Shown here: piece after piece, positions 41,872 to 47,554 of the stretch
Layout of the letters: every line of letters starts with the position of its first letter
Numbering within the stretch: position 1 is the first letter of the stretch
Source: Methanolobus sp. WCC4
GTDB taxonomy: Archaea > Halobacteriota > Methanosarcinia > Methanosarcinales > Methanosarcinaceae
Reading direction: 5' to 3'
Assembly (NCBI RefSeq): GCF_038022665.1
Contig: NZ_CP150629.1
Coordinates: 2,524,480 to 2,588,479, forward strand
DNA: 64,000 bases
The notes under the pieces: generated by a model
Told to the model about the DNA's origin: nothing
Seen by the model: the letters and a program-made list of their open reading frames with translations, nothing else
Databases searched by the model: none
Position numbers and translations under genes: made by a program

Positions 41872-43152
41872 CTACTCGAATCTGGTTCTCACAGAATCAG
41901 CATGCGCCTGCAGACCTTCCTTTTCAGCCAGCGAGATGACAGGTCCTTTCAATGTCTCAAGGCCCTTCTTGCTTATTCTCTGTATGCTTGCGGATTTCAT
42001 GAAATGGGCAAGGTTCAATCCGGAATATAGTCTGGCGTAACCGGCTGTAGGCAGAACGTGATTGGTACCTGATGCATAATCACCTACCGGGACCGGAGCA
42101 TAGTTGCCCACGAATATGGAACCTGCATGTTCTATACCCTCAAGGACTGCATCCTCATCCTCCACCATTATCTCAAGGTGCTCCGGGGCAAACTCATTGG
42201 AAAAAGTGATGCATTCATCCATGGAATCGACTACCAGTATTGCGGCGTTCTCAAGTGAAGTATTGACGATCTCAGTCCTGAGGGTTTCCTTTGCCTGCTT
42301 CAATACCTCAGCCTTTACGTCTTCTGCAAGCTCCTCAGATGTCGTTACGATCACAGAGACCGCATTAGGATCATGTTCCGCCTGAGCGATCATATCCGAT
42401 GCCGCCATCCTCGCATTACAGGAATCATCGGCAATGATAAGCACCTCGCTGGGGCCTGCCGGGAAGTCGATCTCAGCCATGTCCCTTACCTGCATCTTTG
42501 CAGAGGTTACAAAGACATTGCCCGGACCTACTATCTTGTCAACCTTCATTACAGTTTCAGTACCATAGGCCATACCGGCAACTGCCTGCACACCACCCAC
42601 CTTATATACGTGGTCTGCACCAGCCACCTTTGCTGCCGCGAGCGTCAGAGGATTGACCTTCCCATCCTTGCCAGGTGGTGTGCACATGACCACGTTCTTA
42701 ACGCCCGCAACCTTTGCAGGCACTATGGTCATAAGGGCCGTGGAAGGGTATGATGCCCTGCCACCCGGAACATATGCCCCCACACTCTCAAGTGCGGTGA
42801 ACTTCTGCCCCAGCTCGATCCCAGGGGACACCTCAATGAACCAGATCCTCTGAGGCATCTGAGCCTCATGGAACTTCCTGATGTTAGCAGCAGCAAACTC
42901 CAGGTTTGCCAGGAGTTCAGGGTCAATGCTCTTTGCAGCCTCATCTATCTCATCCTTTGAGACCTCGATAGCTTCGATATCGGCACCATCGAACTTCCGG
43001 GTATATTCACGCAGGGCTGCATCCCCATTATGCTTTACATCATTAAGGATCCCTGCAACCGTTTCTTCAACATCTGCAAGGTCCCCGCCACCACGGCCGA
43101 TCAGTTTGTTCCTTTCTTCATCGGTAAGTTCGGATAGTTTCTTGTAAAGCAT
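41872..43152 (-). CDS. hisD: Histidinol dehydrogenase
   Basis: The 426-residue protein has the HisD stretches [20 protein letters not shown] (about 119), [24 protein letters not shown] with catalytic His, and [13 protein letters not shown]. It performs the last two steps of histidine synthesis with NAD and zinc. GGGG lies eight bases before the ATG. No other his gene is adjacent, and a MITE-like repeat is found just upstream. Confidence 0.96.
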
Positions 43153-43484: not shown

Positions 43485-46400
43485 CTATTTTTCAAAGTCA
43501 CTGAAAGTGCTCTGTTCTTTCTCCATCAGCGAACCCATTGTCTGTGAATTAACCTTTCCGGGCTCCTCAGACTTAATATCAAAATGAAGACCTATCTCTT
43601 TGAAGAGCTTCCGGGCAGTCTTCGGACCGATAAGTTCTGAAACCCTCTCCAGACCTGAACTCTTGATAGCATCCACAGTCTTGATATCATTATCATAAAG
43701 CTTGCGGGCACGTACACGACCGATGCCCCTTATGCTGACAAGTTCGATAAGCTCTGGGGAGGCACCGTAGTGTATCCTTTTCTCTAGAAGGGCAGTGTGA
43801 CTGGAAATATCAGCATTCTCGCTGCTCATTTCTGGAGCTATCAGGCCTGAGAGCCTCGACATTGAATGCATGAGCCATTCGGCAATGTCTGCAATGGCAT
43901 GTACATCACCCTCGCCGACATTGAACTTCTTCGTTATGTAGTCAAGTGTCTTCTCACCTATCCAGTCCTGTATCAGAAGGGCGGTCTTCACCTCAGCAAG
44001 GAAAAATTCATAATCGATCTCCTTTGAGCGTGGAGGTATCTCCGCAAACTCGTCGCTATGGGCAAGGACAATGTCGTTGATCACCTCATAATCACCGGAC
44101 CGCATGTAGAGCTGCCTCATATCCGGTGCCTTGCAGATAAGATGCAGAAGGGTGAGGTCTGTGATATTCTGAGGCTTAGCTTTTTTCAGGCCATCGACCA
44201 TGTAAGCACCTGAAAGCGGGTCGATGTAAAGTGTGGATACCAGTCTCCCGAGAGCGGTTGGAAGCAGGCTCTCATCACCTTCAAGCATTCTGTTATACCT
44301 CAGGAAATCAAGACATTCATCCACCACATCCATGATGCCCCAGGTATCGTTCTGGTGGGCGAAGAACGTTGCCTCGATGAACTCCAGAAGTCCGTCCCTT
44401 GTGGTTGCAAAACCATTCACGACGGTGGAGAGGATGTGAGTCCTCAGGGCATTTTCGGAACCCAGTTTGGACCATATGTCCTCAGCATCGGAATCGATGT
44501 AATTGTCAAAGAGTCCTGTCATCTCATTATATGACTTCGCGATGAGCACGGATTCCCCATAGGGATCAAGATGCGGCCTTCCGGCCCTGCCTGCCATCTG
44601 CTTATAATCAAGGACAGGTATCGGTTGCATACCATAATTGGGGTCGTAACGCCTGTAACTCCTGATGATGACCCTCCTTGCCGGAAGGTTCAGGCCTGCT
44701 GCAAGGGTAGGAGTGCTGGAAATCACTTTTATCTTATTGCTTCTGAAACCATCCTCTACTATCTTCCGGTGTGCTGAGTTCAGGCCTGCGTGATGGAATG
44801 CCGTGCCGTCCCTTACACACTTAGCAAGCTCATTTGATGCCTCTGTCTCACCATTCTCGATTATCTGCTCCACAAGTTCATCAAGTGCATTGCGGGTCGG
44901 TTTGTCAAGTGTCTCTGAAACCATCCTGCCTGCTCTCTTTGCAAAGGAAACACTGTTCTTGCGGCTGCTCTCAAAGACAAGACACTGCCCACCGTCCTCA
45001 AGAGTGTCCAGCAGTACATTGACAGCCTCATCCTTTGTCCTGGCCTCAATAAGTTTCTGCGAACCATGGAAATTGATGTTGCCGTTCAGATAGACACCTT
45101 CATGCAGGCTCGTAGGACGCCATTCACTGAGCACGAGCTTTGCCTTCAGCCAGTCAGCGATCTCATATGCGTTACCAACGGTTGCCGATAGAGCGATTAT
45201 CTGACAATCCGGGTTAAGCTTCATGAGCTTTGTGAGCGTGACCTCAAGTGTCGGGCCCCTGTTGGCAGAATCCAGCAGGTGCACCTCGTCCACAACTATA
45301 GTGGTTATCTCTTCCATCCACGTTGTCTCGTTACGCAAAAGGGAATCGGTCTTTTCGGATGTGGCGACTATTATGTCATTGGAACCGAGCCACTCATCCC
45401 TTGATTCGAAGTCACCTGTGGAGATGCCGACCCTGACCCCACCACTTTTTATGTTAATTGATGAAAATGTCCTGAACCTATCGAACTTCTCGCTTGCCAG
45501 TGCTCGCAGAGGTACGATGTAGAGAGCTTTGCCACCGTCTGCTATGGACTTTAGCATGGCAAGCTCTGCAAGAAGCGTCTTACCCGATGCTGTGGGAATT
45601 GCAGCGAGAAGGTTGTTGCCTTCGATCAGCCCTTTTTCGATGGCTTCGGCCTGTGGCGGGTAAAGTTCTTCTATGCCGGAGTCGGTGTAGAAACGGATGA
45701 TATCTTCCGGCAGATCAAGGTCTTTTATTTGCAAGGAATCTTTGGAATGCAAAGATTTCTCTTTTTTGTTTAAAGTAGGACTTGTTCGTTTATCATCTTC
45801 AACTGTCCCATGGTTTTTTTGCTTTGATTCAGCAGGTAAAACTCTTTCTTTTATAGAAGATTCGTACAATAAATCTTGTTCAACTATTTGTGAGATTAAA
45901 GTATCAATACCCAACTTAATTTCATCATGAATAACTTCAAAAAAGACCTGTTCTTCTACGCACTCCTGAACAAGAGCATCATATATAATGTGGTGTTCCC
46001 TAAAATCAGTAAAAATACCATTAAAGAAGGAATCTGCAAAGTTTTCAATAGCTTTTTCCTCATTCCTTTTATCTGAGTTTATTTGTTCAATCCACTTAGT
46101 TAATCCAGTAGAATAGGAAGGTAATTTTTTCAGACCCTTGCCTTTTAGCACTTTACTTATGAAATCAAGCTTAGAAATAGCACACCCATAACCACTTTTA
46201 GGAGAAAAAGCTTCTTTATGAGACTTATTTGGGAAATAAAGAATAAGATCAAATCCCACATCCAGAAATAATGGTTTTGTTGTACAAAGAATCTGCTTAC
46301 AAGGCCGTTTCCAATTATACGAAAAAAATGCTACATCTGATTTAATATCAAAGTCTAAATCAATATGGATTTTTCTTAAATGTTTTTTATGTTTAGTTTG

Positions 46401-46823
46401 TGGCTTTTTTTTGTTTTGATTTGTAGCATCATACAACCAAACCATATTGTCATAAAATTCTTCTCTATCACTAATAACATCTGGATTTATGGGAGAGTGT
46501 TGGAGTTCTATTACCAAATCATCTGCATTTTTGATATCTGCAATATGTTTTTTCCCATCTTTTTCAAGCAGACACTCACAAAATTCTTTATCAACTGATT
46601 TTTTCCAGCTTATATGCCAATCAGTCTCCTTACCATACCCATCGCAAGCTGTACCAGGGTAATGAGAAAAATAATCATTTGTTTTGACTTTTACTATATT
46701 GTAAACTAATGGTGTTTCACATTTTGGCCAATCACAAAAAGGGCAGTAAGCGTTTATCCCTTTTACCTTATTTTCAGCACTCGCTTTTATTTTTGTGCCA
46801 CTAAGTGTTATCCCATAAAGCAT
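43485..46823 (-). CDS. hel308: CoiA-like nuclease domain fused to Hel308 (Ski2-type) DNA helicase
   Basis: The frame encodes 1112 residues without a break. Residues 364-1112 are a complete Hel308: [19 protein letters not shown], motif [10 protein letters not shown] (about 408-416), [19 protein letters not shown], and helix-hairpin-helix [12 protein letters not shown]. Residues 1-130 resemble CoiA: C27/C30 (YCPFC), YFSHYPG with H54, ETDWH, and a PD-(D/E)XK-like core D96 (HIADI) and E106-x-Q108 (VIELQHS), then [11 protein letters not shown]. Residues 131-363 look like a linker or extra domain. TTG for residue 364 aligns with the usual Hel308 start. Hel308 unwinds lagging strands at stalled forks; a nuclease could process the product. 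No ribosome site precedes the ATG. Confidence 0.9.
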
Positions 46824-46879
46824 TTAGTGTGTATTTGAATTAATATTATTTTACTCTTGAGTAGGTGCATTAACATTTT

Positions 46880-47554
46880 TCACTCATCGATATAGAGTGC
46901 ATCCAAAGGACATGCCTGTACACACTTAAAACAACAGACACATGAATGGTCTGTCACAATATACCTCTTCGATACGTCTATCCACATAGGACAGACCCGG
47001 TCACAAATACCGCATGAATTACACAGGGATGCATCCCTTCTGATCTTCTTTCTGCTTACAAGGTTCAGCAGTCCCGCAGCCGCCCCTTCCTTGCAGAAAT
47101 ACTTGCATGCCGCCCTGTCCACGAAAAATGAAAGCAGTATCGAGACTATCATTATGGCCACCAGTCCTTCAAGTATGAGAATTCCTGTGGACTCAGGAAG
47201 AAGGTCAAGTTCTGAAAGGATCAAAGTCACCAGAACAAACAGCATCAGTGCGTATCTGGAATACATCAGCCAGGGATGGAATTTCCTGGGAACTGCAGCA
47301 TTGTATCTTTTGCCAAGAACCCTTCTTCCCAGCCTTGCAAAGATATCCTGAAAAAGTCCCCTTGGACATATCCAGCCACAATAGACCGGTCCAAAGAGCA
47401 AAGCCAGAGGTACGCTTAGAAGTATAACGTATATTGTGGACTGGCTGCCAAAATAAACAAAGATTGCCAGTCCGGTCAATTGCATAATCAACCTGAAAGC
47501 TTCAACGGACTTTCGTCTGGCAGAATCTGATAGCAGATCATTGACGTTTTTCAC
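46880..47554 (-). CDS. NapH/NosR-like membrane iron-sulfur protein
   Basis: The 224-residue protein has about four membrane helices, the GPVYCGWICPRGLFQDI motif (about 55-70) and DRAACKYFCKEG of the NapH family, and a C-terminal pair of 4Fe-4S motifs (CNSCGICDRVCP and CVCCFKCVQACP, about 178-212). Such proteins pass electrons across or along the membrane to oxidoreductases. The start is GTG with AGGAT upstream. No partner reductase is adjacent; the function is open. Confidence 0.85.
   Translation of the reverse strand: MKNVNDLLSDSARRKSVEAFRLIMQLTGLAIFVYFGSQSTIYVILLSVPLALLFGPVYCGWICPRGLFQDIFARLGRRVLGKRYNAAVPRKFHPWLMYSRYALMLFVLVTLILSELDLLPESTGILILEGLVAIMIVSILLSFFVDRAACKYFCKEGAAAGLLNLVSRKKIRRDASLCNSCGICDRVCPMWIDVSKRYIVTDHSCVCCFKCVQACPLDALYIDE

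Follow-up and report, generated by a model that had tools for sequence, protein, structure and literature searches.

The gene at 43485..46823 (minus strand) of the window, the stretch of 64,000 nt from Methanolobus sp. WCC4 that was analysed here, encodes a CoiA-family nuclease module followed in the same chain by a complete Hel308 helicase. To begin with, the gene (ATG start at 46823) was a single open frame of 1112 codons without internal stops, so that its one-frame CoiA-Hel308 architecture is near certain, and the original prediction of a complete Hel308 joined without interruption to 363 extra residues was borne out, with residues 364-1110 of the 1112 corresponding to Hel308. The first residues (MLY) were common to all the relatives aligned for this kind of fusion, hereafter type 1 (4/4). 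As for its function, the evidence leans slightly towards an antiviral, Hachiman-like nuclease-helicase in one chain, with a putatively catalytic module, a putative coupling of helicase and nuclease, and a presumed role in defence.

The helicase part (residues 364-1112; 43485..45734, minus strand) matched positions 1-738 of 739 of the NCBIfam model PRK02362 (Hel308) with 1075.3 bits (cut-off 887), and Pfam recognized in it the DEAD, Helicase_C, archaeal domain 4 and HhH domains. The Walker A motif (410-416), DEVH (512), QMAGRAGR (742) and the HhH region (1027-1076) were all present. Downstream, hisD (41872..43152, minus strand) adjoined hel308 at nearly all the loci compared in Methanolobus and three other genera of the family, which identifies the gene of the window as the native hel308, and its neighbours were metabolic genes. 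The protein thus agrees with Hel308, an archaeal Ski2-like DNA helicase, in its full length, its syntenic locus and all its helicase motifs, while it differs in carrying 363 additional N-terminal residues and in the loss of the promoter; in the other Methanolobus Hel308 proteins, the start corresponds to the junction. The nearest relative in the helicase tree was the unfused native hel308 of genome G017 (89% identical). Moreover, the window genome had a second complete and unfused Hel308 (739 aa, 69% identity; G000:C1:2813120-2815246, L042 6094-8313), located among small uncharacterised proteins resembling an integrated element, around which a search against PHROGs recognized only a phage-type DNA methyltransferase. 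Two other helicases were also noted: a Hel308/Ski2-like protein of 1076 residues in G017 (29% identity; L041 4888-8118, G017:C7:925895-928060), with a long extra C-terminal part and ordinary neighbours, and a Hel308 of another genus of the family (G034:C106:4949-7456), whose match, lying in a frame of 960 aa, was divided into two parts, perhaps owing to an intein or another insertion.

CoiA has been tied to transformation. In the fusion, the CoiA-family module comprised residues 1-240 (46104..46823, minus strand), with homology to stand-alone CoiA proteins up to around residue 230, so the CoiA-like nature proposed for the N-terminus held, while its extent was found to be approximately 1-230 instead of 1-130. 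When searched against Pfam, the window protein scored below the gathering cut-off of CoiA_nuc (15.6 bits, E-value of 0.018, cut-off 20.3), whereas two of three genus relatives of the N-terminal part that aligned well exceeded that of CoiA_N (26.3 bits), namely the fusion of M. vulcani B1d (33.9) and a stand-alone M. vulcani protein (29.8). The module was therefore assigned to CoiA through its homologues, since by itself it lies below Pfam's CoiA gathering scores. Furthermore, bacterial plasmid proteins annotated as 'competence protein CoiA family protein' matched residues 12-216 by tblastn with the N-terminal part (E-value of 2e-14). The following residues, 241-363 (45735..46103, minus strand), were considered the C-terminal part of a CoiA-type protein plus a linker from their similarity to Soudan_28 and M. 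vulcani sequences; in particular, residues 241 to ~342 resembled a stand-alone protein (439 residues) from Methanolobus sp. Soudan_28.

Within the module, the PD-(D/E)XK core (residues 66-132; 46428..46628, minus strand) included D96, E106-x-Q108 (PD-EXQ) and R120, and a predicted zinc knuckle, with putative metal binding, was made up of C27, C30, H54 and C60 (46644..46745, minus strand). Among 31 divergent sequences with identities down to ~22%, H70, H93, D96, E106, Q108, S110, R120 and W129 were invariant, while the four knuckle residues were conserved in at least 90% of them and invariant in the 4-sequence type-1 alignment (A1). This pattern of D96, E106, Q108 and R120 matches the published description of CoiA as a PD-(D/E)XK nuclease of the PD-EXQ type with a conserved arginine (Kosinski et al. 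2005, PMC1189080). The model of residues 1-240 made from the 31-sequence alignment showed an alpha-beta3-alpha-beta core with good confidence (mean pLDDT 82.8, pTM 0.83). It replaced an initial model from four sequences, which was poor (pLDDT 53). The core and the motifs first read from the sequence (a Cys pair, YFSHYPG and ETDWH) were accordingly recovered, in the invariant residues and the model for the former and by conservation among relatives for the latter. It could be argued that the module is catalytically idle and only binds or targets DNA through its zinc knuckle, all the activity being that of Hel308, as Foldseek gave no significant match in the PDB for either model and the third catalytic position is Gln and not Lys. 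However, the invariance of D96, E106, Q108 and R120 at such low identities speaks against it, as does the occurrence of PD-EXQ in BglII, a restriction enzyme that is active (PMC1189080), which makes an idle module improbable and a nuclease the preferred reading. The weak Foldseek matches included several PD-(D/E)XK proteins, among them YaeQ, Hef and T7 endonuclease I, and a sequence search of the PDB gave nothing useful.

Relatives of the module were found on mobile elements. Those on plasmids and viral contigs were mostly stand-alone proteins of ~200-300 residues, in contrast to the window module, which is fused to a complete helicase, though it shares with the CoiA family (PF25164 CoiA_N, PF06054 CoiA_nuc, COG4469) the zinc-knuckle N-terminus, the PD-EXQ core and the conserved Arg. 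A total of 66 viral contigs encoding relatives was detected with alignment A3, whereas tblastn found none in phage records, and no helicase fusion was seen among the viral CoiA relatives. Likewise, scanning the genome contigs with the single sequence of residues 1-362 gave no relative, while the alignment-based scan gave four loci. On plasmids, one relative was near an McrC gene and another near an abortive-infection gene (two records). No helicase adjoined the CoiA-like genes that stand alone in G020 and G025. Regarding M. vulcani, its stand-alone CoiA-like gene adjoined a solo cas1, a PolB of the protein-primed type and a BglII-like endonuclease, surroundings (L037 2-8630, G023:C8) that correspond to a casposon-like element and of which the CoiA gene may be cargo, and a cas1 remnant was observed near the Soudan_28 copy (L038 10606-11082). 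The zinc-knuckle segment of the window protein (CDWPKCE.PLVY) resembled that of the stand-alone M. vulcani protein, and the one of the M. vulcani fusion (CDPLNERPLR) resembled its counterpart in the stand-alone protein of Soudan_28, a pattern that would fit an exchange of this segment between family members.

The composition of the gene changed at the junction, with the G+C content falling from ~0.50 to ~0.32 upstream of 45730, and the third-position G+C content being 0.23 in residues 1-363 and 0.47-0.55 in the helicase part and the neighbouring genes, in agreement with the AT-richness that had been pointed out for the N-terminal part. Codon 364 (TTG; 45732..45734, minus strand), proposed to be where normal Hel308 proteins begin, did align with the ATG of hel308 at the 24 unfused Methanolobus loci. 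At nearly all of those 24 loci, a TATA-like box (GGGYAATTTTAATTA or close to it) appeared ~34-39 nt before the ATG, while it was not found at the fusion junction nor anywhere else in the whole window. In turn, the fusion gene had a promoter-like block of its own (46838..46883, minus strand), with TAAAATAATATTAATT located 15-30 nt before the ATG and a putative promoter function. The inserted module is bordered upstream by a gene for a ferredoxin-type membrane protein (46880..47554, minus strand), separated by 56 bp from the CoiA start, and in G017 its counterpart was 71 bp upstream of hel308. The missing box and the spacing of the upstream gene, together with a TTG where the ATG was, indicate that a CoiA unit with its own promoter replaced the hel308 promoter. 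Composition, junction alignment and homologues thus agreed with the suggestion that a foreign, AT-rich CoiA-like gene was joined to the helicase at its start codon.

An alternative is that a selfish or hitchhiking CoiA gene has settled before hel308 and the helicase is produced separately, by internal initiation or processing, with no joint function. The foreign AT-rich composition, the relatives on mobile elements, the TTG at codon 364 together with another one at codon 358, and the second complete Hel308 of the window genome would fit this scenario. However, residues 285 to 353 of the M. vulcani fusion included no ATG, GTG or TTG codon, which precludes the start of an intact Hel308 at that junction. 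This and the disappearance of the conserved hel308 promoter make a separate short Hel308 from the window TTG unlikely. Moreover, two species have preserved an open frame and an in-register linker, and another CoiA-Hel308 fusion exists (see below). Mere hitchhiking is thus quite improbable, and a single chain is expected from the fusion gene.

The same architecture, at the same locus and with a homologous linker, was found in M. vulcani B1d, so the fusion, for which relatives had been proposed as the place to look, is not unique to the window genome. An assembly or sequencing artefact joining two genes, which the G+C step at the junction might suggest, was considered and rejected as exceedingly improbable: the window lies within one contig of 2.85 Mb, which is the whole window genome, and the gene order and junction recur in this independent draft with an N-terminal part only ~48% identical. 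No other Hel308 was found in the 99% complete draft of M. vulcani, where the second match was an 833-residue Ski2-like protein seen across relatives. Overall, the type-1 fusion appeared in two out of 27 Methanolobus species.

The helicase tree rejected the window and M. vulcani helicases as sisters (AU P-value of 8.7e-6), and two independent type-1 fusions were considered. However, three lines of evidence favoured a single event. Firstly, the last 25 codons before the junction aligned without gaps between the two genes (43 out of 75 nt identical), a similarity reached in none of 20000 codon shuffles. Secondly, the promoter-like blocks upstream of both fusions aligned with a score reached by one out of 1000 shuffles. 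Thirdly, the proportion of identical codons at shared residues of the two N-terminal parts was 0.676, compared to 0.534 at saturation (z of 4.4), an excess that no other pair of N-terminal parts showed. In the amino-acid tree of these parts, the one of M. vulcani grouped weakly with a stand-alone protein (76/80), and a grouping of both fusions was not rejected (P-value of 0.062). From the linker homology, the promoter block and the codon similarity despite the non-sister helicases, we infer one type-1 fusion that was later spread or replaced by recombination. Furthermore, dN/dS was ~0.42 in the N-terminal part and ~0.04 in the helicase, rough values since the synonymous sites of the helicase are near saturation, and the latter indicates strong purifying selection on the helicase part.

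Besides the type-1 fusion, a second kind was found in two other Methanolobus species, G002 and G017. Both genomes had an unfused native hel308 and, in addition, a Hel308 paralogue of 1043-1046 residues (48% identity) with a different CoiA-like N-terminus, which showed the motifs C..C, HFAH and PDxS...EI and matched CoiA_N below its cut-off (E-values of 1.6e-4 and 0.004). The two genes were located in defence islands, containing a pVip viperin, Csa3 and McrBC-like genes in G002, and BrxB and BrxC (BREX) with McrBC-like genes in G017, the McrBC-like assignments having been made from sequence motifs. The pVip gene and the Csa3-type CARF regulator near the fusion in G002:C1 were at L039 1054-1884 and 165-941, respectively. 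A sample of 393 genomes from the phylum showed long frames of CoiA-Hel308 only in the four Methanolobus species that carry one of these two kinds of fusion, and no paper combining CoiA and Hel308 was found in a literature search that covered mainly open-access journal articles.

Regarding how the fusion protein may work, the following is proposed. A CoiA-type gene, mobile, AT-rich and equipped with a promoter of its own, would have displaced the native hel308 promoter, joining in frame at the hel308 start codon, and this one fusion would now be patchy in the genus, apparently by recombination. Its product would be a single polypeptide, in which a linker connects an N-terminal PD-EXQ nuclease module, bearing a zinc knuckle, to the complete 3'-5' DNA helicase Hel308. 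Hel308 would bind and unwind foreign DNA that is forked, nicked or actively replicating, delivering the CoiA nuclease, which would cut it. The result would be a Hachiman-like antiviral or anti-element activity in one chain, with the repair work of Hel308 retained.

The closest competing explanation is a housekeeping repair enzyme, in which CoiA would cut the flap, joint or duplex exposed as Hel308 unwinds the lagging strands of stalled forks. Such an enzyme would be akin to Hef, a single-chain archaeal helicase with a PD-(D/E)XK-fold nuclease, although Hef belongs to a different helicase subfamily and its nuclease is of the XPF type and C-terminal, while that of the fusion is an N-terminal CoiA. 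The NCBIfam Hef model matched only the shared motor (34.8 bits vs. 610). The native hel308 locus, the fusion being the only Hel308 in M. vulcani and the strong purifying selection on the helicase are in favour of repair. Opposite to this, the fusion is patchy, the nuclease evolves fast and the other kind of fusion is found in defence islands, so that we regard a repair enzyme as rather unlikely. Those same three observations favour defence, as do the mobile CoiA relatives on plasmids, on viral contigs and beside the casposon-like cas1-polB. Two further parallels point in the same direction: a CoiA-domain protein from an E. coli pangenome screen protects E. coli from phage, with no Hel308 described together with it in the parts of that report consulted (PMC9519451), and in Hachiman a nuclease is accompanied by HamB, a helicase likened by its authors to Hel308 (PMC12278908). 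However, the location of the window fusion at a housekeeping locus, and not in a defence island, goes against defence, and so does the presence of CoiA relatives in viruses, given that the module is then not defence-specific.

When compared to Hachiman, the fusion likewise combines a PD-(D/E)XK-type nuclease and a Ski2-like helicase, and the HamB models matched its helicase motor region, and that region only. In contrast, Hachiman consists of two proteins with a HamA-type nuclease, while the fusion is one chain with a CoiA-type nuclease and a true Hel308 including domain 4 and HhH, and no match to HamA (DUF1837-type) was found in it. Similarly, the fusion protein had no match among dedicated defence models, the PADLOC matches covering the shared helicase motor only. 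Pairs of nuclease and helicase are already known, while the combination of CoiA with Hel308, as well as its location at the native Hel308 gene, seems to be new.

The finding touches two questions of the field, the biochemical role of CoiA and how repair helicases become immune sensors. In this natural fusion, CoiA is attached to a helicase whose substrate preference is known, so that the substrate of CoiA and the coupling of both activities are testable in one purified protein. Tentatively, Methanolobus may have turned Hel308 into a single-chain immune enzyme at least twice, through the N-terminal addition of a mobile CoiA module, and one of these events would have involved the housekeeping gene. 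Hel308 would then sense foreign or damaged DNA, with CoiA acting as the effector, in what would be a one-polypeptide counterpart of Hachiman derived from the repair helicase of the host. That a single genus has CoiA-Hel308 fusions of two kinds, one on the native gene and the other in defence islands, suggests that the pairing has been selected, and may represent the transition from repair to immunity.
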